A DNA stretch of 56,915 nucleotides from Rhodospirillaceae bacterium. Its GTDB lineage: Bacteria > Pseudomonadota > Alphaproteobacteria > TMED109. Below are positions 17,980 through 39,876 of this stretch, in pieces (position 1 is the first letter of the stretch; every line of letters begins with the position of its first letter). The notes under the pieces are model-generated. The model saw nothing but the letters and a program-made list of their open reading frames with translations, had not been told where the DNA came from and did not search any database. The stretch lies in assembly GCA_902614225.1 (NCBI GenBank), contig CACMKJ010000003.1:1-56915 (forward strand), read 5' to 3'. Position numbers and translations under genes: made by a program.

Positions 17980-19008
17980 TTATATTTTGGGCTTGTAAGC
18001 TATTAACATCATATGAGAAGAGTTATTAGATTTGATTAGGTAATCTTGAAATTTCTTTTCGCTGTCTAGACTTTCATCTTCTATCAAACTCAAAATAAAA
18101 GGACCTAATCTATTTTTGTTTATATTTTTTTCAAGATATGCTTGCTTTACAATATCAAAATCCAATAGCCCCGGTGTTGATACAATTACTTTTTCAAATC
18201 CTGCCTGCTCTAACATCTTTTTAATAGATTTTGTATTAAATAAATTTAAATGTTCATGATCTACTGTATCAGACTCTTTTCCCAACACAGTTGTTTCAAA
18301 TCCTCCTATATTCGGACAAGTCAAAAAAATACAGCCACCTCTATTTAAATTTTTAAAACACCATTTCAAAAATTCTCTCGGATCAAATAAATGCTCTATC
18401 ACTTCAAAGTTTACTATAACATCAAACTTAAAACTAATTTTAGCTTTTTCATAAGAGCTTTCTATTACATCTATTTTCTTTTTTCTCAATACTTCTGCTA
18501 AATCAGGGGTAGGTTCAATAGCAATAACTTTTTTAAATAAATTCAATTTTTTTATTTCTTCACAAAAATACCCATATGCCGCTCCTATTTCTAATAAATT
18601 TCCATTTAAATATTTTGAATCAATATTTTCTTTTAAAAAAAATGCTCTAGGTTTAAAAATTTTTTCTTTTCTAATGTCTGCACTGGCAGAAAAAATATAC
18701 TTAGCCCAATAGGCATAATTTAAGGAGTTTTTATAAAAATCTTCTAACACAGCTTTTGTTGGCCTAGGACTGATATACTGCGTCAAACAATTATTACATA
18801 ATAAGTGATTTAAATAATACTTAACGTATAAGGGTTTACTATTTTTGCTTCCACATGATGGACAACATACGTTTACAAAATCCATTGATCTATTTTTAAG
18901 CCACTCGATATCAGCTTTCATAGCTTTCTTTTGTTCCTGCATAAGAATTTTTGGCCTTATGTCATTTTCATTTAATGGCTTTAGATTATTGTTTCTGAGT
19001 TTTTTCAT
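17980..19008 (-). CDS. SAM-dependent methyltransferase with N-terminal zinc ribbon
   Basis: A class I methyltransferase of the kind found in sugar-modification clusters (342 aa). Cys pairs CPSC (49-52) and CNNC (71-74) form a zinc ribbon followed by the typical QYISPRPT sequence. The SAM-binding glycine loop LLEIGAAYGYF is at about 138-148, and a VIVNFEVIEHLFDP segment provides the acidic motif II. This two-part layout resembles sugar C-methyltransferases and small-molecule O-methyltransferases. The substrate is not evident. It is the last gene of the island, next to the tRNA-Gly/Trp pair. Confidence 0.8.
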   Translation of the reverse strand: MKKLRNNNLKPLNENDIRPKILMQEQKKAMKADIEWLKNRSMDFVNVCCPSCGSKNSKPLYVKYYLNHLLCNNCLTQYISPRPTKAVLEDFYKNSLNYAYWAKYIFSASADIRKEKIFKPRAFFLKENIDSKYLNGNLLEIGAAYGYFCEEIKKLNLFKKVIAIEPTPDLAEVLRKKKIDVIESSYEKAKISFKFDVIVNFEVIEHLFDPREFLKWCFKNLNRGGCIFLTCPNIGGFETTVLGKESDTVDHEHLNLFNTKSIKKMLEQAGFEKVIVSTPGLLDFDIVKQAYLEKNINKNRLGPFILSLIEDESLDSEKKFQDYLIKSNNSSHMMLIAYKPKI

Positions 19009-19083: not shown

Positions 19084-20388
19084 TTATTTTACAGGAGCTT
19101 TTAATAATTTAATCAAATTTTGATCCTTTAATTTTTCTATAAATGGATAAGTCTCCCAAATTGGAATATCACAAAGCTCTGCTATATCTATTAGAGATTT
19201 TTTACCGTCTGACCAACTTAATATATCCATTAATAATTTGACTTTGTTACTTTTAATATTGTTACTTATTGTTGGATATAAGCCTCGTTTACCCATTTGC
19301 GGTTCGCCTAAAATATTTACCAATGGATAACAATTATTTTCTATGCCTTCAATACATAGTTTAACAGACTGATATCCTCCATCTAATCCTTCGGGGGTAA
19401 CTACATTCTCTAAATTATCTAATGAAGTATGATATTCATCATACATACCGTATTTTGTTCTCATAATAGATGCTATTGGCAAATCTATTAACGGCGCACA
19501 GTACTGTCTTTCATCTGATCCTCTATCAGACCATTTATACTCTACATAATTTTTATCAATCGCTTTTAAAATATGCTTCGCAATACGATCACTGATAGTA
19601 TCTCCTTTTCTAGATGGTAGAAAAGAATGTGCTCTATCATCTCCTATACAAGTAATATTAAATCCTGCATATACGAATTTTTTAAGATGTTTTAAATTTT
19701 TACTAAGATAAGTTAATGAACCTATAGTTTCTGGAATAAATATAATTCTATATGAATATCTTTTTTTTTTTAAAGACATAATCCATTTTGTAAGAAAAGT
19801 TAGCACAGATGGACCAGATAATTCATTATTAGCCATAGATGGATGACAAATATAAGTTGATAATAAAATCTCCCTTTTAGACTCTCCTCTAATAAGAACT
19901 TCACCGTATGTTAAACTTCCATCAAATAACTCTGAGTCAATGTAAATTTCATATTCTCCGTCAATTAATTTTTTTCTATTTTCTTCTGATATACAAAATC
20001 CCCAATTTTTTTTATAATAACTGGTTACATATGGTATTGCTTTTTTTTGATCTGGCAGAGAGTGTAAATGCTTTTGTAACTCATCTAGAGTTATTTTTTT
20101 ATGAATTGGTACACTATAACCAACAATATGGAGATTATTATTTTTAAAGTCACAAATTTTTTTACCATTGGGAAGTTTAATCCAAGCATTTCTTATTTTC
20201 CACTCTTTAGGAACAACCCAATCAAATACTTTTGTTCCACTAGGTATTTTTTTTATACTTAAGTTAGGAATATGTAGTTGAATTTTTCTTAACGTTTGAT
20301 CTACTCCCTCTCCAGTAATACTTCTATTTATAGGCCAAAGTTCTTTACAAAACTTCCAAATGCTAACACCTATTTTTTTATTCTCCAA
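19084..20388 (-). CDS. DUF4910/aminopeptidase-like domain protein
   Basis: A 434-aa protein that I recognise as the DUF4910 (aminopeptidase-like) family common in polysaccharide and secondary-metabolite clusters. It starts with the typical WPINRSITGEG stretch (18-28). Possible metal-binding residues of an M28-like fold are His182 and Glu189 (ICHPSMANNELSGP) and Glu220 (IPETIGS); RGSDERQY follows near residue 286. The last 60 residues look like a winged helix. The family's reaction is not established; amide or peptide-bond hydrolysis is an inference. It sits 12 bases after the MaoC-SDR-ACP gene, in the same run as the acyl module. Confidence 0.7.
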   Translation of the reverse strand: MENKKIGVSIWKFCKELWPINRSITGEGVDQTLRKIQLHIPNLSIKKIPSGTKVFDWVVPKEWKIRNAWIKLPNGKKICDFKNNNLHIVGYSVPIHKKITLDELQKHLHSLPDQKKAIPYVTSYYKKNWGFCISEENRKKLIDGEYEIYIDSELFDGSLTYGEVLIRGESKREILLSTYICHPSMANNELSGPSVLTFLTKWIMSLKKKRYSYRIIFIPETIGSLTYLSKNLKHLKKFVYAGFNITCIGDDRAHSFLPSRKGDTISDRIAKHILKAIDKNYVEYKWSDRGSDERQYCAPLIDLPIASIMRTKYGMYDEYHTSLDNLENVVTPEGLDGGYQSVKLCIEGIENNCYPLVNILGEPQMGKRGLYPTISNNIKSNKVKLLMDILSWSDGKKSLIDIAELCDIPIWETYPFIEKLKDQNLIKLLKAPVK

Positions 20389-20399
20389 ATACTTAATCC

Positions 20400-21875
20400 T
20401 TAAGTGTTTTTATTAGTTAATTTAGATTTTACAGTATTTACAATATCATCCAATGATATCAAAATTTCAAAATTTTCAGAAGAAAACTTTATAGCGAAAT
20501 AATTTTCTACTTCCAGAATAATTTTGATATGATTTAAAGAATCCCAACCTCTAGTATATCCAAGAGCCGCGTTATCAAGTTCGTTAATATCTTCCAATTC
20601 AAGTTCTTTCATTATAATTGAACTAACTTTTGCTTTGATATCAATATCTTCATTTTCAGAAGAAAGTATTTTTTTATCTATATGTTTAAATTGGTTTTGA
20701 AAATTATTATATCTATTTTGATCGTCTAAACTATGACCTTTATCAACAAACTTAATCTCGCCAGATTTATTTATTCCTATATCTAATATTTCTATGTTAG
20801 ACCCCGAAGTTAATAGCATTTCAGAAATATAATTAGCAACTTCTTCTGGTAAAAGTGTGGGGGAGTTTCCACGAATATTCTTTGAAAATTTTGTTCTCAC
20901 AAAACCTGGCATTAGAACTTGTGTTCTAACTCCATACTTCTTATATTTTTTATCTAATGTCACTGCATAGTTAGTAGTCATACTTTTTGCAGCGCTATAA
21001 TCCTCAATGTTTGAATTTATATTAAATAAAGAGGTGGAACCAATAAAGATAATTCTTCCTTTTTGTCTTGATAGCATTCTAGGAACTAAAGTATTTGTTA
21101 TACTTTTAAAAGCTGTGTAGTTAATCGCTACCAAATCTTTAATGTCAGATTCTATTGAAGATGACGCAGAATGAACAAAAACGTCAATTTCTATATTTTC
21201 TTTTTTTATAAAATTTGACACTACTTTATGTCCATTAGGTTTGGTTAAGTCAGCTGAAATAAACTTAATTTTAGAATTATTATCCTTAATATACTTTTTA
21301 ATTGTATTTCTATGCTCTCCAGGTTTTCTGTCGTGATACACTATTGAGTAACCATCTTTGACTAACTTTTTAACTATGCTAGATCCTATTGATCCTTTTG
21401 CGCCAGTAACAAAGGCCCATTGGTTTCGGTTAGTTCTTTTGATACTTTTAATGCTTTTGACATTCCATTCATTTTCTGTAGCTTGAACGGTTAATTCTGC
21501 TTCTATAACTATCTCAGATTGACGGTGCACTAAAACGTTAATTTTTAATATTCTCAATACTAGATTTATATCTACTATTTTCGCACTGTAAGAAATAATT
21601 TGGTTATAAAATATCGGAAGAGTAGCTTTTATTTTATGTCCTAAATATAATGATGGTTGTCCTGGAAAAATCATTCCTGCTATCATAGAAAATGGCGCAA
21701 TAGCCAAATGAACTGGCACGATAGGCTTCATAAAAGCAGTAGAAGCTGCATACTTCTTATCATAATGAAGTAAATTTTTGTCACCACTTAAAGAACAAAA
21801 ATTATCAAAATCTTTATTTTTAAAAGTTTTTTCAAATGTTACATAGTCACCAATATTAAAATCTTTAAAATTCAT
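20400..21875 (-). CDS. MaoC dehydratase - SDR - acyl carrier fusion protein
   Basis: A three-part protein (491 aa). Residues 1-135 resemble a MaoC-type hot-dog hydratase, with the catalytic D/H pattern in SGDKNLLHYD (30-39). Residues 152-375 are a short-chain dehydrogenase with cofactor motif TGAKGSIG (157-164) and catalytic YSAAK (Tyr293, Lys297). Residues 412-488 are an acyl carrier domain with the phosphopantetheine serine in GWDSLNH (Ser446). It is followed or preceded at 7-12 bases by its neighbours, so it is in an operon with the AAC(3)-FkbH protein. The layout suggests that a carrier-bound acyl group is reduced or dehydrated. No ketosynthase is nearby. The function is inferred. Confidence 0.8.
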   Translation of the reverse strand: MNFKDFNIGDYVTFEKTFKNKDFDNFCSLSGDKNLLHYDKKYAASTAFMKPIVPVHLAIAPFSMIAGMIFPGQPSLYLGHKIKATLPIFYNQIISYSAKIVDINLVLRILKINVLVHRQSEIVIEAELTVQATENEWNVKSIKSIKRTNRNQWAFVTGAKGSIGSSIVKKLVKDGYSIVYHDRKPGEHRNTIKKYIKDNNSKIKFISADLTKPNGHKVVSNFIKKENIEIDVFVHSASSSIESDIKDLVAINYTAFKSITNTLVPRMLSRQKGRIIFIGSTSLFNINSNIEDYSAAKSMTTNYAVTLDKKYKKYGVRTQVLMPGFVRTKFSKNIRGNSPTLLPEEVANYISEMLLTSGSNIEILDIGINKSGEIKFVDKGHSLDDQNRYNNFQNQFKHIDKKILSSENEDIDIKAKVSSIIMKELELEDINELDNAALGYTRGWDSLNHIKIILEVENYFAIKFSSENFEILISLDDIVNTVKSKLTNKNT

Positions 21876-21881
21876 AACACC

Positions 21882-24341
21882 TCAACTATAATTAATGATA
21901 GAGTTTTTTATTTTAGCCCATGCTGGAGGAATATATTTCTTTTCTTGTCTATATTCCCATATTCCTTTTTCATTTTTTTTAAAACCCGACTCTGCATAAA
22001 TATTTCTCGCGGGCGTATTCCTATCTGTTTCTATAATATCTGCTTGAATGGACGAAATTGTGTTATTTATAAAATATTGAGAGATGATTCTAGGAATTAT
22101 ATTCTCTATACCTCTTCCTAATAAACGGCAAGATAGGAGATACAAATCAATTATGCGAACATTTGGTAAATATCTTGAAGGTTTCAAAATTATAACGCCA
22201 ATATTTTCAAAGGTAGAATATTTATCTTCATATCCAATAACAATTATATGATATCCATTTTTTTTAAAATTATTTAATTGATACATATCATAACGCCTAG
22301 CGGTTGTATTAAATTGATTAGTTTTATTAATTAATTGTACTGTTCTATCAGCATTTGTTTCATCAAAACTTGAAAAATAAATAGTCATTTCTAAACTTTC
22401 ATAAAATTTTTCCATGCTTGTAAAATTACTTTGACTGTCTAAAAGTAACTTTCTATTTTTATAATTTTTGATTCTATTCTTATCTTCTTCTGTAATCTTT
22501 AATTTATGTAAAAAAGGAAAGTTTCTTAGAGACTCAAGATAACTAGAAACATCTCCAGATAAATTTATTATTTTTACTGCAGGCAGATTAATTTTTATTT
22601 TATCTCTTTCAACAGGGTTATCGTCAATAAAACATATTGCATCTAAACCAATATTTAATTCTTCTGCAATTTCAATTATATTTTTCCATTTTTCATAATA
22701 ATTAATTTTTATCGCTGAAAAATTTTTTGATTTTAAAATCATGTTAGGGTGAGTATCAATAGCATCCATTGCTTGATCCTTATCATTTTTACTAGATATA
22801 GCAAGAGCTATTCCATCTTCATTTAATTTTTTTAATTCTTTCTGAAATGCAAGATATGCATTACCTGGATAATCTCCCCCTATTTTTATTCCTTGCTTAC
22901 CATTTTCACCAAGTATGCCTCCCCAAATAGTATTATCTAAATCTAATATTATTAACTTTGAAGTTTTTCCCAATATAGCTAAGGTCAAACCTACCCATTT
23001 TTTTGAAAGTTGCGCAGAAAACGAATATGAATATGGAAACTTGCCAATATACCATAATCGAGGATCAAAAACTCTACCATTATGTTTTGCAATTTCTGTT
23101 GATGAGTCTATCCAAATAATTTGGGGTAAGTCTTTCAGTTCTTCTTTCATAATATTATTATATTTATCTATGTAATTATTTGAGTAAATTTCTTCATGAT
23201 TACTGGAAAAATTTAAATTTACAAAACTATGAACAACTGACCAGCCTCCAAAACTAAGATGTAACTTTTTAATATTTAATACATATCTTTGAATCTGACT
23301 AAGTTTTCTGTCTTTGGAGTTGTTATTATCTCCAATAATATCTTCAATTTTATTACAAAAAACTCTCAAATAAGGTTTGAAAATATTTAGTTTAGATTTT
23401 TTTTCAATTATTTCTTTTTCTAACTGTCCAAATGGTAAAACATACTCTTCGATTAATCTCTCAGGTACATATTTTTTTAACATTTTTTTATATTTACTTC
23501 TAAGAATATCCAGGTTTTGATATCCTAATATAGCATACTTTATAGGCTTATTTAATTTTTTCTCATTTTTTAAATATACTTTATATTCTATAAGTTTAGG
23601 GTTTTTAACAAATGAGTACAAAGATTCCTTTAAAATTTGATTACAAAAAAGTGCAATATCTTTTGCCTGACACGCCTCTATTTGTAATTTAAATTCAGAC
23701 TGTTGTTTAATTAGTCCTTTTTTCTTCAACTCCAGAATAATAGTAGAAAAGTCATTTACCGCTTTGATCTTATGGTCTCGCACGAACATTGTAGTTTTAA
23801 TATTTTTTATTTTTTTATTTTCAATAATATCACCAATAAAAGTTTTTTTATAACGATAAGGTACTTTATGTTTTTCTTCAAAATGGTGAAAAAAAGTATT
23901 ATATTTCCAATCACAGCCCAACATTATTATTGTTGCATTTTCTCTTTCAAAAAACTCAAAAATAGTGTTTCTTCCGAACGCTTTTTTTGCATTAGTATTA
24001 ATTATCTTTTTGGAGAGTTTACCTAGAGAAGAAAAAGAATATATTGGATGTTTTGATCTTTCAAAACCCTCTATATTTTTTATACAGAAATCTGACAAAA
24101 TTCCAACCTCTGAATTAGATTTTATGACATCAAATTTTCTTTCAGTACAAAATGAAAAAGTAAATGAAGGTAAAGCTACTGTCCAACCTTCTTCAGACAA
24201 TAATTTAAAAATATAACCTAAATCCCATAATATATTTTTGCTAAATGATCCTAAATGAGGAATTGACGAATGAACAACTATTACCCCAGCCTTTTCAGGC
24301 AATAACTTTTTAATACATCTTAACAATTGTTTTCTATGCAT
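21882..24341 (-). CDS. AAC(3)-like acyltransferase fused to FkbH-type HAD protein
   Basis: An 819-aa fusion. Residues 1 to about 255 match the AAC(3)/FrbF N-acetyltransferase family (VHSSIPHLG at 23-31, LPSFTFSF at 57-64, RSKHPIYSFSSLG at 95-107). After a linker comes an FkbH-like part with a SGNH-like segment. The HAD motif DLDNTIWGG is at 467-475, a CFIDDNPVERD loop is near 580, and a GNAT-like C-terminus covers about 660-800. FkbH proteins load a glyceryl unit from 1,3-bisphosphoglycerate onto a carrier protein, and the next gene encodes an ACP. The AAC(3) domain could transfer the acyl group to an amino sugar. That step is an inference. Confidence 0.78.
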   Translation of the reverse strand: MHRKQLLRCIKKLLPEKAGVIVVHSSIPHLGSFSKNILWDLGYIFKLLSEEGWTVALPSFTFSFCTERKFDVIKSNSEVGILSDFCIKNIEGFERSKHPIYSFSSLGKLSKKIINTNAKKAFGRNTIFEFFERENATIIMLGCDWKYNTFFHHFEEKHKVPYRYKKTFIGDIIENKKIKNIKTTMFVRDHKIKAVNDFSTIILELKKKGLIKQQSEFKLQIEACQAKDIALFCNQILKESLYSFVKNPKLIEYKVYLKNEKKLNKPIKYAILGYQNLDILRSKYKKMLKKYVPERLIEEYVLPFGQLEKEIIEKKSKLNIFKPYLRVFCNKIEDIIGDNNNSKDRKLSQIQRYVLNIKKLHLSFGGWSVVHSFVNLNFSSNHEEIYSNNYIDKYNNIMKEELKDLPQIIWIDSSTEIAKHNGRVFDPRLWYIGKFPYSYSFSAQLSKKWVGLTLAILGKTSKLIILDLDNTIWGGILGENGKQGIKIGGDYPGNAYLAFQKELKKLNEDGIALAISSKNDKDQAMDAIDTHPNMILKSKNFSAIKINYYEKWKNIIEIAEELNIGLDAICFIDDNPVERDKIKINLPAVKIINLSGDVSSYLESLRNFPFLHKLKITEEDKNRIKNYKNRKLLLDSQSNFTSMEKFYESLEMTIYFSSFDETNADRTVQLINKTNQFNTTARRYDMYQLNNFKKNGYHIIVIGYEDKYSTFENIGVIILKPSRYLPNVRIIDLYLLSCRLLGRGIENIIPRIISQYFINNTISSIQADIIETDRNTPARNIYAESGFKKNEKGIWEYRQEKKYIPPAWAKIKNSIINYS

Positions 24342-24359
24342 ATCTAATAATACACTGTT

Positions 24360-25535
24360 TTAATGATTTTTTAAAAATGGTATTTGCTTTTCCTTTATTA
24401 ATTTAACATCACCATAAGCTCTTGGAATATTATCTAAATTATTTTTCCACCACTTACCGTCTTGGATCCACCATACTCTAGGATCTCTAAAGTTATCAGC
24501 TATTTTATCAAATTGTTCTTCAGTCATTCCTGTCATTTTTAAAAAGTATTCTAAGGATGCCTTTGGTTTAATATGATCATATTGTAAAACAAGTTTAACA
24601 CCTTCTTCTCTAGTCATATATCCTAATCTAATATCCTTAGAGGTATGATCTGTACATCTTCCATATCCAAATTTAATAAACTTAAGATAATCCTTAATAC
24701 CATTTTCATGAATATCATCTACATTTGAAAATCTTCTATAAGTTCTTTCATAAGGCTCAGGGTTTTCTTTAAATCCTAATTGTTTTGCAATTTTTAAATG
24801 TTTATTAGCATCCCAATATATATAATTACCCATAAATAAACCTCTTACTCCAACACGATCTAAATCCTCATCACTTGGATACCTTGTCCAAAGTAAATCT
24901 TTCTCTTTTAATCCTTCTTTCCCAATAAAGTCATCTTCAGAAAAGCCCCTTAACATGTCTTCATTACGCTGTCTTTTAGTGAATTCTGGAAAATCATCAT
25001 GAGAGTATTGTCCAACCAAGTCTAAAAAACCATGCTCTCCATATATCAAAAGCGGAATATTAAATTTTACTGCAAATTGAAAAGGAAGACTCCATACACC
25101 GCAATGAAAATGCCAACTCATATCTCCAGTCATTTTAAATCCAACTTTATTCATTTTTTGTATCACATGTTTACTCGGGTAAAAAACATAATGATCTAAG
25201 CCTAAGCTTTCTCTTATATTTGTAAGATTTTCTTCTCCTGTTTTAGAATAATTGTGGGTATAATACGTAAATAAAAGTGGATTTAAACCTAATTGCTTAA
25301 AATACCAAGCTTGAAAATGACTATCTTTACCACCACTTACAGGAATAATGCAATCATAAGTTTGATTACTTTTTGATTTATAGCTCATAATTAAATCAAC
25401 AAATATTTTTTCTCTAGATTTCCAATCAATATTTGATTTTTCATCTGAAACAATGCAGCCACTGCATACTTTTTCATCATCCATAGCTAAATTAACTGCA
25501 ACAATTGGGTAAGTACAACGGCTACAATATATCAT
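24360..25535 (-). CDS. N-acetyl sugar amidotransferase (WbpG/PseA family), cassette 1
   Basis: A PP-loop ATP pyrophosphatase of the WbpG/PseA family (391 aa). Zinc-type Cys pairs are at 4/7 and 24/27 (CSRC, CSGC). The PP-loop SGGKDS is at 67-72. In this family the enzyme activates an N-acetyl group of a nucleotide sugar and uses ammonia from its HisH/HisF-like partners to form an acetamidino group. Those partners are the two genes immediately upstream (25552-26996). The sugar substrate is unknown; a 2,3-diacetamido-uronic acid or a nonulosonic acid are the known types. Confidence 0.85.
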   Translation of the reverse strand: MIYCSRCTYPIVAVNLAMDDEKVCSGCIVSDEKSNIDWKSREKIFVDLIMSYKSKSNQTYDCIIPVSGGKDSHFQAWYFKQLGLNPLLFTYYTHNYSKTGEENLTNIRESLGLDHYVFYPSKHVIQKMNKVGFKMTGDMSWHFHCGVWSLPFQFAVKFNIPLLIYGEHGFLDLVGQYSHDDFPEFTKRQRNEDMLRGFSEDDFIGKEGLKEKDLLWTRYPSDEDLDRVGVRGLFMGNYIYWDANKHLKIAKQLGFKENPEPYERTYRRFSNVDDIHENGIKDYLKFIKFGYGRCTDHTSKDIRLGYMTREEGVKLVLQYDHIKPKASLEYFLKMTGMTEEQFDKIADNFRDPRVWWIQDGKWWKNNLDNIPRAYGDVKLIKEKQIPFLKNH

Positions 25536-25551
25536 TATTTTCCTCCTTATA

Positions 25552-26385
25552 TTACAAACGTGTATTAATTTTATTTTTAATCATGTATTTTTTTGCATTT
25601 AGTACGCTTAATTCTGTAAAGTGAAATATATTTGCAGCAGCTAAAGCCAAATCTTTATTTACATTATAACCATCTACAAAATCTTGATACTCGCCAACAC
25701 CTGCTAGAGCTATAACCGGTATTTTTGAGATATTAGACACAACTTCTAATAATTTCAAATCATAGCCTTTTCCTTGCCCATCTCGATTTATGGATTGAAT
25801 TAATATTTCACCTGCACCTAAATCCTGAATTTTTTTTATCCATTCACTTAAACCAATATTTACTTTTTCTTTCCCAAATTTTTTATATATGTTCCACTTA
25901 TCTGATTTTTTTTGTAAGTCTTTTTTTACGTCAATGGAAATAACTATACATTGTGAACCAAACTCCTCTGATGCTTTTTTAATGAATAAAGGGTCTTCCA
26001 ATGCAGCTGTATTTATTGCTACTTTATCTGCGCCCGCCTTAAGTCTTAAGCTAATATCTTTCAAATTTTTAATTTTACCGCCAATAGTCAAAGGAACTCT
26101 GCATACTTTTGAGACGCTTTTAATTATATCTATGATGTTGTCTTGATTATTATGCTTCATATTTATATTGGACGAGGTTGAACCAATCACACTTTTTCCT
26201 GAATATAGGTTATAATTATTATCTCTTGTAATATCTAAATAGATAATTTCATCAGCCTTCCAATCAGAAAATCTTTGCACCTGATACAAATGATTTCCGG
26301 TGAATTGATGTAGAGAAAAACTTCTACTTCTGACAAGGATACCATTTTTTAATAATAACACAGGAATTAATCTAGTCTTTAACAT
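25552..26385 (-). CDS. HisF-like acetamidino modification protein, cassette 1
   Basis: A TIM-barrel protein of the AglZ/HisF2 family (277 aa). It starts RLIPVLLLKNGILVRS, so the Asp at HisF position 11 is replaced by Leu, while the Asp in VISIDVKK (the HisF Asp130 position) is kept. LTIGGKIK and LAGVG phosphate-binding loops are present. It most likely channels ammonia from the adjacent HisH-like protein to the WbpG-like enzyme and does not make imidazole-glycerol phosphate. It overlaps the HisH-like gene by seven bases. Confidence 0.83.
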   Translation of the reverse strand: MLKTRLIPVLLLKNGILVRSRSFSLHQFTGNHLYQVQRFSDWKADEIIYLDITRDNNYNLYSGKSVIGSTSSNINMKHNNQDNIIDIIKSVSKVCRVPLTIGGKIKNLKDISLRLKAGADKVAINTAALEDPLFIKKASEEFGSQCIVISIDVKKDLQKKSDKWNIYKKFGKEKVNIGLSEWIKKIQDLGAGEILIQSINRDGQGKGYDLKLLEVVSNISKIPVIALAGVGEYQDFVDGYNVNKDLALAAANIFHFTELSVLNAKKYMIKNKINTRL

Positions 26386-26996
26386 TTTATATTAATAAAG
26401 TTTTTTAAAATTTTTAAGCCAGTTTCATGACTCTTTTCTGGATGAAATTGTACTCCATATATATTATCTTTTTCTACTATCGCGGTAATATCATTTCCAT
26501 AAGAACATGTTCCAGTAATATACTTTGTATTATTAACATTGAAATAATAACTGTGTACAAAGTAGCAATGAGTATCAATATTGTTATTTAATAATCGGGA
26601 AGTTGAATTTATTTTTAAATCATTCCAACCTATATGTGGAACCCTAAGATTAGAAAGTTTATTATTAATTCTGCTTACATTGCCACTTATCCAATCTAAG
26701 CCTTTAACTATACCTCCTTCAGAACTTGTTGTTGCAAAAAATTGCATACCCAAACAGATTCCAAGTATAGGTTTTTTATTATTGATCACTTCGAAGTTTA
26801 ATATTTCATCTAAACCTCTTTGGTTTAATTTTTGCATACCTTTTTTAAAACTGCCTACTCCCGGTAGAATTAAATGTGAGCTATTTTTTATTTTGAAAGG
26901 ATCATCTGAGACTATTACGTCGGCTCCTATGTATTTCATAGCATTGAATATTGATGCAATATTTCCTAACCCATAATCTATTATACAAACGCTCAA
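26379..26996 (-). CDS. HisH-like glutamine amidotransferase, cassette 1
   Basis: A class I glutamine amidotransferase subunit (205 aa) with the complete triad: Cys81 in GICLGMQF, and His185 and Glu187 in QFHPEKS. It would hydrolyse glutamine to supply ammonia to the HisF-like and WbpG-like proteins encoded just downstream. It is the first gene of a tight run (26996 to 17980). A 443-base non-coding gap upstream is the probable promoter region. The context (no other his genes, a WbpG-like partner) argues against a role in histidine synthesis. Confidence 0.85.
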   Translation of the reverse strand: MSVCIIDYGLGNIASIFNAMKYIGADVIVSDDPFKIKNSSHLILPGVGSFKKGMQKLNQRGLDEILNFEVINNKKPILGICLGMQFFATTSSEGGIVKGLDWISGNVSRINNKLSNLRVPHIGWNDLKINSTSRLLNNNIDTHCYFVHSYYFNVNNTKYITGTCSYGNDITAIVEKDNIYGVQFHPEKSHETGLKILKNFINIKC

Positions 26997-27439: not shown

Positions 27440-29161
27440 TTATTTTTTTGATATTAAATAATCATCTAAAACTAAAAACTTTAACCCAGATCTCTCAAAA
27501 GTTGAAATTGCATCTTTGGCAGAGTTTACAATGGGCTCGCCGTGAATATTAAACGATGTTTGAAGAACTCCATATTGATTATACTTTGTACAATATCTTT
27601 TTAACATATTATATATTTTTTTATTGGTTGAACGTTTCATGACTTGGGGTCTACAAGTTTTATCAATTGGATGCATTGCTCCTGCGAGGCCTTCTTGCGC
27701 ACTTTCTTTTGCAGGTAAAGCAAATGTCATATAACTTGGTTTTATTTTTTTTTTATCATCAATACATAGGTTATATTTAGTATCTAAAATTGTTGGAGCA
27801 AAAGGCATCCAAAAATCTCTCATTTTAATCTGACTATTAATCTTATCTACTATTTTTCTAGATCCAGACTTGGCAATTATTGATCTATTACATAATGCTC
27901 GTGCTCCCCATTCGGTCCTGCCATTACATATTGCTATGGATTCATTTTTATTTAAAATATCACTAATAGTATTGTCAAAATCATAGTTTTCCTTAATTTC
28001 GTAATTCTTGTTTTGTTTTATTTTTGTTAATTCTAAGTCAAGATCATCTTTTCTCAAGGGGCTACCTAAATAGAGATTATCTAATTTTCCACTAATTTTA
28101 TTAAATAGTTTATTAAAATTATTATTATAAAAATGTAATGCGGCGCCTATAGACAATGATTCATCAGAAGCACTAGGCATCACGTAAACATTTTCAATTT
28201 CGGGCAGGTTTTGAATTAACATATTAGCTTTTACATTCATAAATACTCCTCCCCCGCACACTATTTTTCTAATTTTAGTTTTCTTTACTGCTGCTTTTAC
28301 CCAATTTACTAACATCTCCTCCGTAAAAATTTGTACTGCCCCTGCGATATTATCGAACCTTACTCTTTCAAATTGTTCTTTAAGAAAAAAATAGCTATAG
28401 TTTGTTGACAAATTACCAACTAATTCAAAATTTAATTTTTTTTTGTTTAATTTGATTAGTTTATGTAACTTTTTTGATTCATTAGTAGCAATTTTTTGAT
28501 TAGCGTATGGAGCTAAACCCATTATTTTATATTCATGCTCCCAAGGTTTCATCCCCAATAACATTGTTATCCTAGAATAAATTTTTCCTAATGAAGCATG
28601 TCTATCTGTATGACTTATTCTATTAATTTTATTATTAGTACAAATTGAAACAGATGAAGATAGACCATCCCCAGCTCCATCACAAGTTAGTCCTAATATT
28701 TTTTCATCCTTTTTAAGGTTTGGATATGTATAGTAAGCAGCTGCTAAATGTGCTAGATGATGCTCTATAAAGGAAATACAGCTACTATCAACTTGCAAAT
28801 GCCTTACTACATTGTCTATTCTTTCTTTTTTTCTCTGTAAAAAAACACTTTTTAAATATTTTTTACTTCTATTACTATCTATTTTTTGCTGATTTTCATC
28901 TACTAAGTACCATGATGATATATTTACTAAATATGAAGGTTCATGCATAAAATTTGATGCTATTATAATTTTTTTAATTTGCTTAACATCTACATTTGCT
29001 ATCTTAAGGCATTCCTCTATAGAGAGCTTGGGGTAGCCAACCTCATTTTTTTTCCTTGTTAATCTTTCTTCTAAAACGGAAGAAATAATTTTTCCATCTA
29101 GGCATAAGGAGGCCCCACAATTATGGCCATCATGTATACCTAAAATATATATACCATCCAT
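27440..29161 (-). CDS. Carbamoyltransferase (NodU/CmcH family)
   Basis: A 573-aa carbamoyltransferase of the NodU/CmcH/TobZ family, which moves a carbamoyl group from carbamoyl phosphate (through carbamoyl-AMP) to a hydroxyl of a sugar or antibiotic. The YrdC/Kae1-like N-terminal domain begins ILGIHDGHNCGASL (7-20), and HHLAHLAAAYY near 133-143 carries metal-binding His residues. The C-terminal domain has the typical RTEWGARALCNRSI and LQTSFNIHGEPIV motifs. It is the first gene leftward of a divergent pair with the glycosyltransferase at 29266, so the 104-base gap likely holds two promoters. It probably O-carbamoylates the surface glycan. Confidence 0.88.
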   Translation of the reverse strand: MDGIYILGIHDGHNCGASLCLDGKIISSVLEERLTRKKNEVGYPKLSIEECLKIANVDVKQIKKIIIASNFMHEPSYLVNISSWYLVDENQQKIDSNRSKKYLKSVFLQRKKERIDNVVRHLQVDSSCISFIEHHLAHLAAAYYTYPNLKKDEKILGLTCDGAGDGLSSSVSICTNNKINRISHTDRHASLGKIYSRITMLLGMKPWEHEYKIMGLAPYANQKIATNESKKLHKLIKLNKKKLNFELVGNLSTNYSYFFLKEQFERVRFDNIAGAVQIFTEEMLVNWVKAAVKKTKIRKIVCGGGVFMNVKANMLIQNLPEIENVYVMPSASDESLSIGAALHFYNNNFNKLFNKISGKLDNLYLGSPLRKDDLDLELTKIKQNKNYEIKENYDFDNTISDILNKNESIAICNGRTEWGARALCNRSIIAKSGSRKIVDKINSQIKMRDFWMPFAPTILDTKYNLCIDDKKKIKPSYMTFALPAKESAQEGLAGAMHPIDKTCRPQVMKRSTNKKIYNMLKRYCTKYNQYGVLQTSFNIHGEPIVNSAKDAISTFERSGLKFLVLDDYLISKK

Positions 29162-32189: not shown

Positions 32190-33116
32190 TTAATCATCAA
32201 TTAATTTATTATCCACAGCAAAGATAAATAAATCATGATAATTTAATTCACCTTCTACATTTCTTAATTCACATATCACTGGTGAATAGTTATTTTTATT
32301 TAAAATAGAGATATAATTATGATGAAAGTCAGCTGTTTGTCCACCTATAGGAGAATAATTATCTTTTAAATCTTCAGGTTTTTTTAAATTTAAACTATTA
32401 AAGGATAATGGGAAAGCCCACCACGGTTCAAAAAACAATAAATACTTTACCCCTAAGTATTTAAAAACTTTAATATATTCATATAACTCTTTATTACTAA
32501 ATTTAGGCGACGTACTTATCATTATTACCATATCTGGTTTAACTACTTTTTTCTTAAAAAGCATTAAAGCATAGTCATTATGGACTTTCCAATTCTTCCT
32601 TTTTCCCAAAATTAAATTAATTTCCTTAAGGTTGGATTGCATGTCTATTGAATGGAAATTAATTCCTTTAAATTTTTTAGAAAAATAGTTACTTATTGTA
32701 TCTACTCTTGAACCCAAATTTGCAACTGTTTTAATATTATTACCTTTATCAATAAACAATTGATTTAAAAATGCAGCTACACGCTGTTGTTTAGAATTTT
32801 TTGTTGTTAAATTATTATGATTATTAATAATTTCATCAGTTATTATAGTTTTTGTAATTGTTCTCTCTATAGTCGGAGTCAAAAGAGAGTAATTATATTC
32901 TCTCCATTCTTTAATTATCTCTTCTGGTAATTCAGCTTGATACATAATTTTTTTCTTTGCCTGATAAAAATCATATAGCCACTTTGATTTACTTCTTAAA
33001 TTTAGTTTCCCTATAATAAGGTTGCATCTAATTCTAAAACCAGAAAACAATGAAACACATAAAACCTTTAAAAAACTAATTTTCACAGTAGTATACTTTA
33101 CACTTTTATATTTCAT
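32190..33116 (-). CDS. Hypothetical protein, possibly methyltransferase-like
   Basis: A 308-aa protein that I do not recognise with certainty. The N-terminal 90 residues are basic and may associate with the membrane. From about residue 135 it looks like a Rossmann fold: TVANLGSRVDTISNYFS could be a degenerate SAM loop, followed by INFHSIDMQ ending strand two with an acid. An aromatic stretch LLFFEPWWAFPLS follows. This is consistent with a class I methyltransferase or a degenerate relative. It is flanked by sugar acyltransferase and methyltransferase genes, so a role in glycan modification is inferred. Confidence 0.5.
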   Translation of the reverse strand: MKYKSVKYTTVKISFLKVLCVSLFSGFRIRCNLIIGKLNLRSKSKWLYDFYQAKKKIMYQAELPEEIIKEWREYNYSLLTPTIERTITKTIITDEIINNHNNLTTKNSKQQRVAAFLNQLFIDKGNNIKTVANLGSRVDTISNYFSKKFKGINFHSIDMQSNLKEINLILGKRKNWKVHNDYALMLFKKKVVKPDMVIMISTSPKFSNKELYEYIKVFKYLGVKYLLFFEPWWAFPLSFNSLNLKKPEDLKDNYSPIGGQTADFHHNYISILNKNNYSPVICELRNVEGELNYHDLFIFAVDNKLIDD

Positions 33117-34687: not shown

Positions 34688-36475
34688 TTATAAAAAATCG
34701 CTTGCCTTACCAACTTTATTAATTAAACCATCCTTTATACTAATTATTTGATCTAAGTTTTTATATGACGAAATTCTATGAGCAATTAAAATAACAGTTA
34801 TTTTCATCTTTTTTTGTAAAATAGCTATAGTATTCTGAATATATTCATCTGAGTCTTTATCCAGCGCACTGGTAGGCTCGTCTAATATTAATACTGACGG
34901 TTTTTTTAAAAATGTTCTAGCCAGGATTATTCTTTGTCTTTGGCCTCCTGATAACTTAGAACCCATAGCACCTAAATTAGTGTTTAGTTGATCAGGGAGA
35001 TCTTTTACAAAATTTTCTGCATTAGCTAGCTTCAAAGCACTCCATAAATCAGAATCTGAAGCATCCTCTCTTACATACCTCATATTTTCTGCTATAGTCA
35101 TTCTGAATAAAATAGGGTCTTGTGGTATATATGATACATTTGATCTAATAGAGTATAAAGATAAATCCGAGATATTAATGCCATCAAATAATATTTGACC
35201 ACTTGAAGGTGTTATCAATCCTGTTAGCATTTCTACTAATGTAGATTTACCTGCACCTGAATGACCTATTATTGCTGTAAAAGACCCTGCATTTATGGTA
35301 AAGCTTAAATTTTTTAGTACCATAGCATTTCTACTAGGGTAAGAATACCTTACATTTTTATAAATAATATTTTTTGTTACAGAAGGTAAAGAAATACCAG
35401 ATTTAATGTTTTCCATGCCTTTAGAGGCATTAATAAATGTTTTTTCCAAGTGAACACACGATGGAAAAAACCTTATTAAATTATTAATATTTGCCTGCAA
35501 ATTAGACATTAAAGGCATAATTCTTAAAAATGCGATACCAAAAGTTAGAATAATAGTTAACTGAATAGATAAAACAGATACAAAAATATTTATTGTAAAT
35601 AACAAACTTAAAGTTGCTAATGATATAAATAATAAACTAATAATTGCCGAAATTTTTGCTAACCTAAGCTCATTTTTGAAAATATTTTCTTGAATTTTTT
35701 TTATTTTATCTTCTTCTAATAATTGGTTATTAAATAGTCTTATTAGTTTCCAAGACATAAACCTCTCATTAATGAACTCTCTGTAAATATTTCTATAGTT
35801 AAGATTAGACTCACTTATTTTTTTTGTTTTTCTTATAAAACCACTTGAGACTAATAAAAGAAATATAACAAATAATAATATTGAAAATGTTATTTTTGGA
35901 GCAGTTAAAAATAGTAAGGCCAAATAAGAAAAAGCAGTTAATAAAACTACTGTAAACGCATTATATATTCTTAAAATAGCAGCAACTTGTGGTATTTCCC
36001 AAGCAGTAATATTAGATAAGTTACCTGATTTAAAATCCTGTATATATTCAGCATTACTGTTCATGATTAAATTAAATGTTTTAATTTGTAACCTTTTATC
36101 AACGTTCCATTTTAATCTTTCCATTTCAATGGTATTTATGTAATTACAGACCTGTCTAAATAATGTAAAAAATACAGCAGCGATAGATAATGATAATAAA
36201 CTTAAGTGAATGCCAAAAAAATTATATACATTAAATACATACCTACAAAGTAGCGAGCTTTCGATGAATTGATCTATATCCCCGTTATTTTCAATAAAAC
36301 TAAATATAGGAATTACTAATGACAAACCTAAAGCTTCACAAAATACTGTTAAGAAACCTAGCCCTATAATAAAAATTAATTCCTTATAATTCGTTATATT
36401 TCTAGAATATAAAAACTTCCAATGCATTAATATATAGAAAAATAATTTAGGAATTTTTTTAAGGTTTGAAATCAT
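34688..36475 (-). CDS. ABC transporter half-molecule (MsbA/PglK-like flippase)
   Basis: A 595-aa ABC exporter. Six membrane helices occupy about residues 20-330, and a nucleotide-binding domain follows. Walker A is GHSGAGKST near 408-416, the signature is KLSGGQRQRI, Walker B is VLILDEPTSALD, and the H-loop is IAHR. This single-polypeptide homodimer type includes PglK, which flips lipid-linked oligosaccharides, and MsbA. As the only transporter in the island it is the likely flippase for the glycan or its lipid-linked precursor. Its start overlaps the end of the KpsS-like gene. Confidence 0.85.
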   Translation of the reverse strand: MISNLKKIPKLFFYILMHWKFLYSRNITNYKELIFIIGLGFLTVFCEALGLSLVIPIFSFIENNGDIDQFIESSLLCRYVFNVYNFFGIHLSLLSLSIAAVFFTLFRQVCNYINTIEMERLKWNVDKRLQIKTFNLIMNSNAEYIQDFKSGNLSNITAWEIPQVAAILRIYNAFTVVLLTAFSYLALLFLTAPKITFSILLFVIFLLLVSSGFIRKTKKISESNLNYRNIYREFINERFMSWKLIRLFNNQLLEEDKIKKIQENIFKNELRLAKISAIISLLFISLATLSLLFTINIFVSVLSIQLTIILTFGIAFLRIMPLMSNLQANINNLIRFFPSCVHLEKTFINASKGMENIKSGISLPSVTKNIIYKNVRYSYPSRNAMVLKNLSFTINAGSFTAIIGHSGAGKSTLVEMLTGLITPSSGQILFDGINISDLSLYSIRSNVSYIPQDPILFRMTIAENMRYVREDASDSDLWSALKLANAENFVKDLPDQLNTNLGAMGSKLSGGQRQRIILARTFLKKPSVLILDEPTSALDKDSDEYIQNTIAILQKKMKITVILIAHRISSYKNLDQIISIKDGLINKVGKASDFL

Positions 36476-37995
36476 TATTTAGTATTGTGAATATTGTAAG
36501 TTTCAATTAAAAGTTCTACAGTTCTCTCAGTGTCTTTTGCATCTAAATAAGTTCTTTTTCCATAAAATAATGGAGTTTCCTTTGCCTCAAAAGATGATTT
36601 TTCAATAGCTTTTACTATTTTTAAAGCATTTTTTTTGATTTTTAACTGTATACTTTTACTTAATGGAGTCATTACTTTATTTATAATTTTATTTAAATTT
36701 GTAAAGTCTGTTATAGTCCATATATTTGATAAAAAAGAAAAAGAGGAATGTAATGAAAATTCAATTACATTTTTACCTAATAAACTAGCCTCCAAACTCA
36801 CAGTTCCTACTAAGCTAGCTACAGCTCTTGACTTTTTAACTAACTCTTCTCCTTTTATTGAGGGATGTACCATCCTTACATTTGGTAATCTTAATAATGT
36901 TGTATAAAATTCATTACTTCTTCTTCCTATATCAACATGCTCTTTAATAATTAACTCATAGCCTGCTGGCATATTCAACGCTAGTTGTTTGATTATAGCT
37001 CCTTGATCATTAAACTCTTTGCTTCTACCTTGAACAGAGAATTCTGGTTCTAAAGAAAGTGCATAAAATAAGAAAGGCTTTTTTAATAAGTTAATATCTC
37101 TGACGCTAAATTTATTAAAAAACTTATACATTCTTCTACTATGTATATGAAATAAAATATTTCTTAAAATACTTACTCTTTTTTTTTTTGTAAAATCTAG
37201 CTTTAATATATCTAAAATCAAAAACTCTATTCTGAAAAATATTATTTTTAATATTCTTTTTAAAACTACTGTTCTAGAATAATTTGTATCTAATTTATCT
37301 AATGAAATATATCCAGATGCAGGCTTAGCCATTACATCTTGCTTAGAGTCAATCATTTGTTGATTTCTATCATAATAGTACTTTAATTTAGAATTATCTA
37401 AAAAAGCACTGCTTGTCCAAAATCCATAACTTTTATACTTAGAATTATAAGGAAAGGTAACTAATACATTTTTACTTTCTAAAATACCTGCTAAAGTAGC
37501 TGATAATCCGTCTACTGGCCAAATAATAGCCATATCAAATTTATATTTTTTTATTAAATGTTCACTAAACTTAAAATACCCATTTATCAATTTAATTAAT
37601 TTTTCATTACTACTGATTGTATTTTTTCCCCAAATATAATTTGCAGCATGTGATAAAAAATAAGTAGAAAGCTGTCTATCCTGCTGAATAATATCTCTCA
37701 TATAATTTAAATCATATAAAGTTTCATTATTCCTTGCTAATTCTTCTTCCTTAAAAACTTCTTCACTATATCCCTCAGAAAAAGTATTTTTTAAACTATT
37801 ATCTAAACTGATAAACAAATCTTCTTTTTTATTCAATACCTTATTGTAATTAAAACGAGAACTCTCGGAAGCTATAACTACAAAATTACAATTATATTTT
37901 TTTTTAAGTACAGGAATGATTATAAGATACAACCAATGAAGTATTTCATATCCAACAATTATGACACTTTTAGGACTTTTATGATTAATACTCAT
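36475..37995 (-). CDS. Capsule-synthesis (KpsS/KpsC)-like protein
   Basis: A 506-aa protein whose C-terminal half resembles the capsule polysaccharide synthesis (KpsS/KpsC-like) GT-B family. FLFYALSLEPEFSVQGRS (about 310-327) is followed by YELIIKEHVDIGRRSNEFY, NVRMVHPSI, and SLVGTVSLEASLLGKNVIEF near 400-420. The N-terminal half begins like a GT-B N-domain (SVIIVGYEILHWLYL). Family members transfer Kdo or other sugars to lipid or act on phospholipid-linked chains. The acceptor here is unknown. It lies between the second amidotransferase cassette and the ABC flippase with almost no spacing. Confidence 0.65.
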   Translation of the reverse strand: MSINHKSPKSVIIVGYEILHWLYLIIIPVLKKKYNCNFVVIASESSRFNYNKVLNKKEDLFISLDNSLKNTFSEGYSEEVFKEEELARNNETLYDLNYMRDIIQQDRQLSTYFLSHAANYIWGKNTISSNEKLIKLINGYFKFSEHLIKKYKFDMAIIWPVDGLSATLAGILESKNVLVTFPYNSKYKSYGFWTSSAFLDNSKLKYYYDRNQQMIDSKQDVMAKPASGYISLDKLDTNYSRTVVLKRILKIIFFRIEFLILDILKLDFTKKKRVSILRNILFHIHSRRMYKFFNKFSVRDINLLKKPFLFYALSLEPEFSVQGRSKEFNDQGAIIKQLALNMPAGYELIIKEHVDIGRRSNEFYTTLLRLPNVRMVHPSIKGEELVKKSRAVASLVGTVSLEASLLGKNVIEFSLHSSFSFLSNIWTITDFTNLNKIINKVMTPLSKSIQLKIKKNALKIVKAIEKSSFEAKETPLFYGKRTYLDAKDTERTVELLIETYNIHNTK

Positions 37996-38009: not shown

Positions 38010-39239
38010 TTATAACAATTCTTTAAGTTCTTGATAAAGAATCCATTTATTATTTTCTTTTTTCCAAAGGTGAGGTGATCTAAAATGATCAATTTTTTCC
38101 CAAAACTCTTCTCGTTTTAAATTTAAAAACTGTAGACAATCATTAATATATCTTTCAGGAAATTCTCCTTCGAATTGTTTAGCTAATAAAATGGCTTCTT
38201 CTCTATCTATATGATTATTTCTTATTTCCTGACTAGCATCTAGCCTAGTTCTTCCAATTCCAAATTTTATGTAATGACAAAAATAATGCAAAGAGTCAAA
38301 CTTATCATCTATACTGGCATATTTTCCATATGTTCCATCAGTACGCTGGTCATCTGGTTGAAATCCACAATTTTCTACAGCATAATAATATGCTGATTGT
38401 GGATCCCACTTCAAATACCACCCAAGATTATCAACTTGGATATTTTTACTCTTTAATTTATCAAAGTGTATGGCACTATATGGTTCTATATCATTATCTG
38501 ATAAATTATGTTTCTTCTTCAACTCATTAATTGGCATGCCCGCAATATAAAGCTCGCTCTGATCTTTATCTATAGAATAAAATTCTTCACCAAACCCAGG
38601 TTTATCTACTTTATTAGGATCTTCACTGCCATATTCCGATCTAGGTTCTCCATAAAAAACTAAATCTATGTTATATTGCATAGCTACCTTTATCGGATAT
38701 ATTTTTAATCCAAATTTAAATGGTTGAATAGGATGTAATAAATTATCAAAAGCTTCTCTTGCTAAAATTCTAGACACTTTACCATTAGGAGTAAAAAGAA
38801 TATTATCAAATCCACCTATATTAATCCAATTTGCCATATTTCTTAGACCTTCTTCAGTATATAACAAAGGAGAATAAGTAACTGTTAATGGATGCATTCC
38901 ATACTTATACTTCAAAATATGTGATGCCATTCCACTATCTTTACCTCCTGAACCTGGAACAACGCAATCATACCTTCCATCATTTCTTCTATATTTATTT
39001 AATTTTTCTATTAATAATTTTTCTCTTTCTTCCCAATCAATTTTATCTTTCTTTTTATCCGCATAATGGCAAGCAGAACATAATCCATCCTCATGAATAT
39101 CAAGACCAAATTTTTTAACTTCTACTCCATGTACCATTTCATTCACAGAAAAAGGTTTTTGGTTAGTCATTAAACATTTTGAACAATGTTCAACTTTTTC
39201 TGGTAAACCATACAAAGAAAATTTATTTTTATTACTCAT
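38010..39239 (-). CDS. N-acetyl sugar amidotransferase (WbpG/PseA family), cassette 2
   Basis: A second WbpG/PseA-type PP-loop enzyme (409 aa). Zinc-type Cys are at 19/22 and 54/57 (CSKC, CSAC), and the PP-loop SGGKDS is at 97-102 within a PGSGGKDSGMASH segment. It is clearly different from the cassette 1 enzyme, with a longer N-terminal region and a differing SGGKDSG/SGGKDSH context. It is therefore an old paralogue or separately acquired, not a recent duplicate. It is encoded 15 bases after its HisH-like partner. Likely to act on a different sugar or position. Confidence 0.83.
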   Translation of the reverse strand: MSNKNKFSLYGLPEKVEHCSKCLMTNQKPFSVNEMVHGVEVKKFGLDIHEDGLCSACHYADKKKDKIDWEEREKLLIEKLNKYRRNDGRYDCVVPGSGGKDSGMASHILKYKYGMHPLTVTYSPLLYTEEGLRNMANWINIGGFDNILFTPNGKVSRILAREAFDNLLHPIQPFKFGLKIYPIKVAMQYNIDLVFYGEPRSEYGSEDPNKVDKPGFGEEFYSIDKDQSELYIAGMPINELKKKHNLSDNDIEPYSAIHFDKLKSKNIQVDNLGWYLKWDPQSAYYYAVENCGFQPDDQRTDGTYGKYASIDDKFDSLHYFCHYIKFGIGRTRLDASQEIRNNHIDREEAILLAKQFEGEFPERYINDCLQFLNLKREEFWEKIDHFRSPHLWKKENNKWILYQELKELL

Positions 39240-39254
39240 TAAGATTCCTTTGAA

Positions 39255-39875: not shown

Positions 39876-39876
39876 T

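Follow-up and report, generated by a model that had tools for sequence, protein, structure and literature searches.

The six-gene cluster and its conserved three-gene unit

We analyzed a 56,915-nucleotide stretch of DNA from a Rhodospirillaceae bacterium (GenBank assembly GCA_902614225.1, contig CACMKJ010000003.1, positions 1 to 56,915; the whole stretch is called the window below) and describe a cluster at positions 19084-26996 whose genes may build an acyl group on a carrier protein and transfer it to a surface sugar. A first-pass annotation, made from the DNA letters alone, had placed six tightly packed genes there, encoding in order of transcription a HisH-like glutaminase, a HisF-like barrel, a WbpG-like amidotransferase, an AAC(3)-FkbH fusion, a fusion of MaoC, short-chain dehydrogenase/reductase (SDR) and acyl carrier protein (ACP) domains, and a DUF4910 protein. 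We confirmed all six minus-strand open reading frames (ORFs) and their domains (Pfam, NCBIfam). The gaps between them, along the direction of transcription, are -7, +16, +18, +6, and +11 bp. The gap ahead of the HisH gene measures 443 bp and the one past the DUF4910 gene 75 bp. The motifs DLDNT, TGAKGSIG, YSAAK, and GWDSL are all present in the encoded proteins.

The functional unit is formed by the last three genes. Looking in other genomes, as the first-pass annotation had suggested, we found AAC(3)-FkbH, MaoC-SDR-ACP, and DUF4910 next to one another, both fusions included, in nine genomes besides the window (at least ten in total). Because the three genes recur in this form, their clustering is not due to chance. 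The carriers are a member of the Woeseiaceae (locus L079), two Bradyrhizobium genomes (L103, in which the DUF4910 match was the search anchor itself, and L113, genome OK095), a deltaproteobacterium (L105), a member of the Rhizobiales (L123), and the genomes with loci L036, L160, L161, and L162. The order AAC-FkbH, MaoC-SDR-ACP, DUF4910 was found in the window, L079, L103, L105, L113, and L123; DUF4910 comes first in L036, L160, L161, and L162. All four fusions retrieved through the fusion search carry both partners, and a single-sequence scan of genome contigs using the fusion gave no match. In a tree of 68 FkbH domains, the nine fused rows formed one clade (SH-aLRT 100); L036 had been dropped at trimming.

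The model of the AAC(3)-FkbH protein divides into four domains: AAC(3), SGNH/GDSL-like, HAD, and GNAT-like. Its AAC(3) part reached 75 bits with Antibiotic_NAT (PF02522, cut-off 25), and the fold match to AAC(3)-IVa comprises 239 aligned residues at a root-mean-square deviation of 2.8. H152, E155, and E156 of this domain are invariant in 10/10 fusions. The FkbH part scored 241.9 bits with TIGR01686 (curated cut-off, 146.65), and residues 258-616 of the model match 3slr (BF1531 of Bacteroides fragilis) with Z 33.8. D467, D469, K518, D573, D574, and C738 are invariant, again in 10/10 fusions.

In the second fusion, the MaoC domain stayed below the Pfam gathering threshold (22.4 versus 27), yet phmmer matched it to the (R)-specific enoyl-CoA hydratase 1IQ6 with E 6e-12. 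D32 of its Asp-x4-His dyad is kept in all ten fusions and H37 in nine; in the protein L161:1427-2908 (minus strand) this His is replaced by Phe and neighboring residues are lost too, the remaining module being intact. The SDR part (adh_short, 114 bits; cut-off, 27) resembles FabG/actIII ketoreductase folds in the model, and its catalytic S280, Y293, and K297 are invariant (10/10). A Pfam scan of the ACP part of the window protein gave no match. We assigned it as an ACP because it contains GWDSL, because S446 is invariant in the ten fusions, and because it was modeled as a helical domain behind a 37-residue linker that appears disordered (predicted local distance difference test [pLDDT] score below 50). 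Apart from H37 in L161, the MaoC and SDR catalytic residues persist among relatives with 26-36% identity to the window protein. The loss of FkbH or ACP catalytic residues in close relatives had been named in the first-pass annotation as a point that would speak against its proposal; the catalytic residues of every domain were kept in 10/10 fusions except for the one MaoC His. Judged from the proteins compared, the module is real, conserved, and, save for the MaoC His in L161, predicted to be catalytically intact.

The third protein had been listed without a role in the first-pass annotation. Its presence was confirmed (DUF4910, DUF2172, and HTH_47 each scored above the Pfam cut-off), and we now regard it as a core member of the module that is probably a deacylase. 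Its solved relative CA_C2195 (3k9t) matches it with E 4e-113. Among the zinc ligands of 3k9t, His189, Asp195, and His324, both His residues are conserved, and Asp195 corresponds to Asn188 in the window protein. Asn followed by Glu was found at this site in 84/88 DUF4910 homologues checked; the CA_C2195 structure may represent a minority type of metal site. All features are listed in Table 1.

Table 1. Genes and domains of the cluster and its downstream neighbor (positions in the window; residues of the encoded proteins)
Feature	Position	Strand	Evidence
HisH-like glutaminase, acetamidino cassette	26379..26996	-	TIGR01855 228 bits, cut-off 105
HisF/WbuZ-like subunit, acetamidino cassette	25552..26385	-	TIGR03572 241 bits, under WbuZ equivalog cut-off 300
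WbuX/WbpG-like N-acetyl sugar amidotransferase	24360..25535	-	TIGR03573 333 bits, cut-off 203
AAC(3)-FkbH fusion gene, 819 aa	21882..24341	-	both families in one ORF; AlphaFold2 mean pLDDT 84
AAC(3)-fold N-acyltransferase domain, residues 1-250	23592..24341	-	PF02522 E 9e-21; AAC(3)-IVa 6mn3 Z 24.8
FkbH N-terminal SGNH/GDSL-like domain, residues 264-458	22968..23552	-	GDSL esterase 8ik1 Z 15.9
FkbH HAD phosphatase domain, residues 460-615	22497..22964	-	TIGR01681/TIGR01686; MDP-1 fold Z 16.7; DLDNT 467-471
FkbH C-terminal GNAT-like domain, residues 652-804	21930..22388	-	AAC(6')-Ib-like fold Z 13.3; Cys738 in LLSCRxLGRG
MaoC-SDR-ACP fusion gene, 491 aa	20400..21875	-	domain matches and model
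MaoC (R-hydratase) domain, residues 1-140	21456..21875	-	PF01575 E 1e-4; dyad D32/H37 in SGDKNLLH
SDR/ketoreductase domain, residues 150-370	20766..21428	-	PF00106 E 1e-32; TGAKGSIG, S280, Y293, K297
Acyl carrier domain, residues 410-491	20403..20648	-	Ser446 in GWDSL, behind disordered linker 373-409
DUF4910 protein, putative sugar N-deacylase	19084..20388	-	PF16254 E 2e-98; M28-like metallopeptidase fold, DUF2172, HTH_47
S-adenosylmethionine (SAM) methyltransferase	17980..19008	-	Methyltransf_23 E 1e-21; 75 bp downstream of DUF4910

The acetamidino cassette, which the first-pass annotation had joined to the acyl module, does not belong to it. In the ten genomes, the HisH-HisF-WbuX set adjoins the three-gene module only once, in the window itself, and we rejected it as a module member. 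The set is complete in the window (amidotransferase, HisH, and HisF), with only the WbuZ score below its cut-off. These genes probably decorate another nitrogen, on the same sugar or a neighboring one. In L167, a distant family member, FkbH lies near HisH-HisF-WbuX-WbuX, and AAC, MaoC, and DUF4910 were undetected there. A second full cassette (WbuX, 319 bits, cut-off 203; HisH; HisF/WbuZ-like) is located at window positions 38010-40647 on the minus strand, 11 kb upstream of the first.

The methyltransferase downstream of DUF4910 is possibly the seventh gene of the transcript, although this is uncertain. It has an N-terminal Cys-rich, zinc-ribbon-like stretch and might act on the newly attached acyl group or on a sugar. 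A NodU-type carbamoyltransferase gene (27440-29161, minus strand) lies 443 bp upstream of the cluster. The whole region is part of a glycan island (17213-50100) bounded by nusG/ribosomal/rpo genes and by a SpoU methylase gene followed by an integrase-like gene (51258-52889). The island is low in GC (28% in the cluster versus 34% in the rpo region), and such a setting is typical of a variable surface-glycan island. The island ORFs 36475-37995, 40712-41569, and 32190-33116 (minus strand) had no Pfam or NCBIfam match. RpoB and RpoC gave their best scores with 7ye1, the Caulobacter RNA polymerase (1812 and 1945 bits, versus 1576 and 1759 bits for E. coli), so that the host is probably an alphaproteobacterium.

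Gene neighborhoods of related loci

To place the module, we used the 80 best-scoring DUF4910 loci with flanks of up to 10 kb, a nonrandom sample in which related genomes are not independent, so that the P values are rough. The hidden Markov models for ACP, MaoC, and MBOAT were self-built from few sequences, and the counts for the DUF4910, FkbH, and Campylobacterales loci are therefore approximate. Ketosynthase (KS) and adenylation domains were looked for by motif, the KS motif being blind to FabH-type enzymes. AAC(3) was present in 49/80 DUF4910 loci, and in 37 of those 49 no more than 500 bp separated it from DUF4910. FkbH was found in 12/80, each time together with AAC and ACP, and ACP was detected in 13/68 of the other DUF4910 loci (P = 9e-8). 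Nine further DUF4910 loci (L063, L067, L073, L077, L085, L087, L092, L098, and L118) contain an adenylation-domain motif, all with AAC and none with FkbH. Since the two loaders never occurred together and AAC is present in all 21 loader loci (chance P = 4e-6), they seem to be interchangeable and to feed one acyltransferase family through a carrier, alongside DUF4910. Unfused versions with DUF4910, AAC(3), FkbH, and ACP are L074, L075, L083, L093, L126, and L269.

A second sample comprised 51 Pseudomonadota FkbH loci, picked by similarity to the window fusion and thus not random for FkbH. The MaoC-SDR combination was seen with FkbH in 16 of these, often without AAC or DUF4910, and for this reason the pair probably acts on the FkbH product. 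MBOAT acyltransferases are encoded near FkbH in 16 of the 51 loci. The clearest case is L170:7798-12600, with MaoC, SDR, FkbH, ACP, and MBOAT but no DUF4910; FkbH, ACP, MaoC, and SDR beside an MBOAT O-acyltransferase, without DUF4910, were also seen in L197, L262, L265, and L272-L275. The acyl generator of L170-type loci apparently feeds O-acylation, and the gene combinations suggest that FkbH-MaoC-SDR-ACP may be a plug-in generator of acyl-ACP. We only tentatively extend this, and lean slightly against it, to a general non-polyketide system that would make lactyl-ACP from 1,3-bisphosphoglycerate and would serve a nonulosonate N-acyl swap here (deacetylation by DUF4910, reacylation by AAC(3)) and MBOAT O-acyltransferases elsewhere.

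A chemical anchor is provided by Campylobacter jejuni. Its flagellin carries 5-(2,3-di-O-methylglyceroyl) pseudaminic acid, with a published oxonium ion of 391, only when the aminopeptidase-like protein Cj1295 is present, whose gene directly follows Cj1293 and Cj1294 (PMC3068675, 2010). In an FkbH census of 299 genomes of the order containing L114 (Campylobacteraceae), the Campylobacterales locus L269 showed the order accC-accB-dcd-PseB-PseC-DUF4910-AAC(3)-ACP-methyltransferase-FkbH-FabH-like-ACP, with PseF, PseG, and HisF/HisH further on (accC, accB, and dcd were named by eye from sequence). This order fits the published Cj1293-Cj1295 order; MaoC and SDR are missing. L258 is an L269-type locus with an additional MaoC-SDR gene ahead of FkbH (L258:6411-7772). 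We infer that FkbH may be the source of the Campylobacter glyceroyl group and that MaoC-SDR would change this group; the sister Pse loci L258 and L269 offer a natural test of the MaoC-SDR effect. A literature search on the genes Cj1297-Cj1302 gave nothing useful.

Closeness to sugar genes points to the target. A nonulosonate synthase (NeuB/PseI) gene is present in 40/80 DUF4910 loci and lies on the contig of the module in 6/9 relatives (L036, L079, L103, L105, L113, and L123), at distances ranging from roughly 1 to 17 kb. In L105 the module is preceded, in this order, by genes for PseI (456 bits, cut-off 340) and a cytidylyltransferase, an unassigned ORF, and a Gfo/Idh-like and a PseC-like gene; in L036 a pseudaminic-acid-associated methylase gene (168 bits, cut-off 112) is directly upstream of the module. 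Since NeuB-family genes are common (9/14 control genomes), it is this closeness and not mere presence that carries the argument. The target is likely a nonulosonic acid of the pseudaminic type, as far as gene neighborhoods can tell.

Proposed acyl exchange and its alternatives

We consider it fairly probable that the three genes encode one pathway, in which the N-acyl group would be swapped on a nonulosonic acid of the pseudaminic/legionaminic type or on a precursor of such an acid. In the proposed pathway, the M28-fold DUF4910 protein would hydrolyze the N-acetyl group and free the amine. FkbH (SGNH-HAD-GNAT) would take 1,3-bisphosphoglycerate, remove the phosphate, and load glyceryl onto the phosphopantetheine of the fused ACP, as expected from its family. 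The 3-hydroxyl of glyceryl-ACP is beta to the thioester and can be eliminated by a MaoC hydratase; the enol product equals pyruvoyl-ACP, which an SDR can reduce. Less securely, MaoC would thus yield 2-hydroxyacryloyl/pyruvoyl-ACP and the SDR would convert it to lactyl-ACP. Finally, the AAC(3) domain, located on the same chain as the loader, would move lactyl (or glyceryl) from ACP to the free amine. The idea of the first-pass annotation, that an FkbH-loaded acyl group passes from the fused carrier to an amino sugar through AAC(3), still appears to be the best reading; of the glyceryl, lactyl, and acrylyl-type groups it allowed, lactyl is now favored over glyceryl, and the amino sugar would be pseudaminic-type.

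Several points weigh against this pathway. Its architecture, co-inheritance, catalytic residues, and genomic link to nonulosonate genes were observed, whereas we infer the chemistry and the sugar from them. None of the scanned ORFs of the window is a nonulosonate gene. The source genome, 55% complete, has such genes on another contig, C4 (PseB, 491 bits, cut-off 408; PseC-like, 414, cut-off 424; PseG-like; NeuB/PseI), and although each of the ten genomes has NeuB-family genes, their presence counts for little, proximity alone being informative. Hydrolysis by DUF4910 is uncertain, as its metal site lacks the full peptidase ligand set and has Asn188 where CA_C2195 has Asp195. Cj1295 would correspond to DUF4910 by locus correspondence and family knowledge, not by its own sequence. 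The lactyl chemistry of MaoC and SDR is an analogy for which the literature search found no supporting paper, and the loss of the MaoC His in L161 can be read as a dispensable or decaying step.

The last point also bears on the alternative that glyceryl itself is transferred by the same pathway, MaoC and SDR having another task such as editing the chain, supplying a minor branch, or oxidizing the hydroxyl of the glyceryl group. Glyceryl-ACP is an established product of FkbH enzymes (PMC7489565, PMC8949500), C. jejuni carries a methylated glyceroyl (PMC3068675), and MaoC and SDR are missing from L269, the locus that fits the C. jejuni one. We nevertheless hold this alternative to be unlikely: apart from L161, the MaoC and SDR catalytic residues are kept over ten divergent fusions, and this conservation, together with the recurrence of the pair beside FkbH in 16/51 loci, makes dead domains or an unrelated function unlikely. 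MaoC and SDR would therefore point, by analogy and more weakly than the other parts of the pathway are indicated, to lactyl above glyceryl. As for the sugar, the window encodes an NDP-sugar dehydrogenase, a Gfo/Idh/MocA-type oxidoreductase, a NeuD/PglB-type acetyltransferase, and two acetamidino cassettes but no NeuB, and malyl and 3-hydroxybutanoyl amides of 2,3-diamino uronic acids or 4-amino hexoses occur in marine O-antigens (PMC3210612). Such a sugar of the window-encoded glycan is an improbable target in place of a nonulosonic acid, given the nonulosonate synthase genes on the module contig of most relatives and in half of the DUF4910 loci, and given that the sole characterized relative acts on pseudaminic acid (PMC3068675).

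It is somewhat unlikely that DUF4910 is a transacylase or a structural or regulatory partner, with the amine coming from an aminotransferase product before acetylation. In favor of this possibility, the DUF4910 site was reported to match no known peptidase, with transacylation as one option and the reaction left open (PMC4000134), the Asp ligand is replaced by Asn in nearly all homologues checked, and amine-making PseC-like aminotransferase genes adjoin the module in L105 and DUF4910-AAC in L258 and L269. Deacylation is favored by the place of DUF4910 in all ten fused modules, by its conserved metal-binding His residues, and by the working hypothesis for C. jejuni, C5 acetyl removal, which covers the removal step only (PMC3068675). 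A small polyketide or secondary-metabolite pathway lying by chance in the glycan island is very improbable, and we rejected it. FkbH is most familiar from polyketide clusters (methoxymalonyl-ACP, tetronates), and the first-pass annotation had regarded co-occurrence mainly with polyketide synthase (PKS) genes as a point against its own proposal. The type I KS motif is almost absent (0/80 DUF4910 loci, 1/51 sampled FkbH loci), Pfam scans of the window ORFs gave no KS family, and the fused modules are neighbored by glycosyltransferase, sugar epimerase, and PseI/PseC genes. The statement that no ketosynthase is present does not hold for every relative, as the Campylobacterales version carries a FabH-type, ketosynthase-like gene.

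If the proposed exchange takes place, a surface glycan would be decorated straight from glycolysis via a carrier protein, with no acyl-CoA. Only three proteins, found together in each of the ten genomes, would cover loading, carriage, modification, and transfer of the acyl group as well as the putative deacylation, which makes rebuilding in vitro possible. The model predicts a rule: (i) FkbH and ACP alone give glyceroyl, (ii) the addition of MaoC-SDR gives lactoyl, and (iii) an adenylation-domain loader gives some other acid.

Comparison with known systems

This kind of system is already known; the fused, MaoC-SDR-equipped version is new. The association has precedents in the C. jejuni chemistry described in 2010 (PMC3068675) and in the combination of DUF4910, ACP, and an acetyltransferase-HAD protein described in 2014 (PMC4000134). 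Like the window, the C. jejuni Cj1295 locus has a DUF4910-type protein and acetamidino genes, and its product, a nonulosonic acid with a C3 acyl group on nitrogen, is of the kind predicted for the window; the Cj1295-type locus L269 has AAC(3), ACP, and FkbH next to PseB-PseC. In contrast to these, the window fuses AAC(3) to FkbH and ACP to MaoC-SDR and has MaoC and SDR, and it lacks the FabH-type protein, the second ACP, and adjacent Pse synthesis genes. The operon CA_C2195-CA_C2199 of Clostridium acetobutylicum, which includes the gene of the solved CA_C2195 protein, shares the DUF4910 homologue, an ACP, an acetyltransferase-HAD fusion (listed as "aminosugar N-acetyltransferase + HAD phosphatase"), and a nearby NeuB-type spsE (PMC4000134). 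There, the ACP is a separate gene, MaoC and SDR are not listed, and the acyl source is not discussed.

The polyketide FkbH glyceryl-ACP synthases (FK520, tetronates; PMC7489565) resemble the window protein in their HAD motifs, C-terminal Cys, and dedicated ACP. They differ in that the window has no PKS, an acyl product predicted to end up on a sugar amine, and MaoC/SDR instead of two FkbI/FkbK-type dehydrogenases. With AAC(3) aminoglycoside acetyltransferases and FrbF (3sma), the acyltransferase domain shares the fold (Z 22.6-24.8) and the His/Glu motif. It was rejected as an aminoglycoside resistance enzyme, since it scored 33.8 bits with NCBIfam AAC_3 (cut-off, 270) and 24.9 with AAC_3_IV (cut-off, 420), and its proposed donor is an acyl-ACP. 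A further parallel is the bryostatin protein BryA, whose FkbH-DH-KR loading module reportedly provides a D-lactyl starter; the literature search gave no usable paper on this lead. In both cases, FkbH, a dehydratase, a ketoreductase, and a carrier would jointly turn bisphosphoglycerate into lactyl. Unlike BryA, the window would encode a stand-alone two-protein system for glycan N-acylation.

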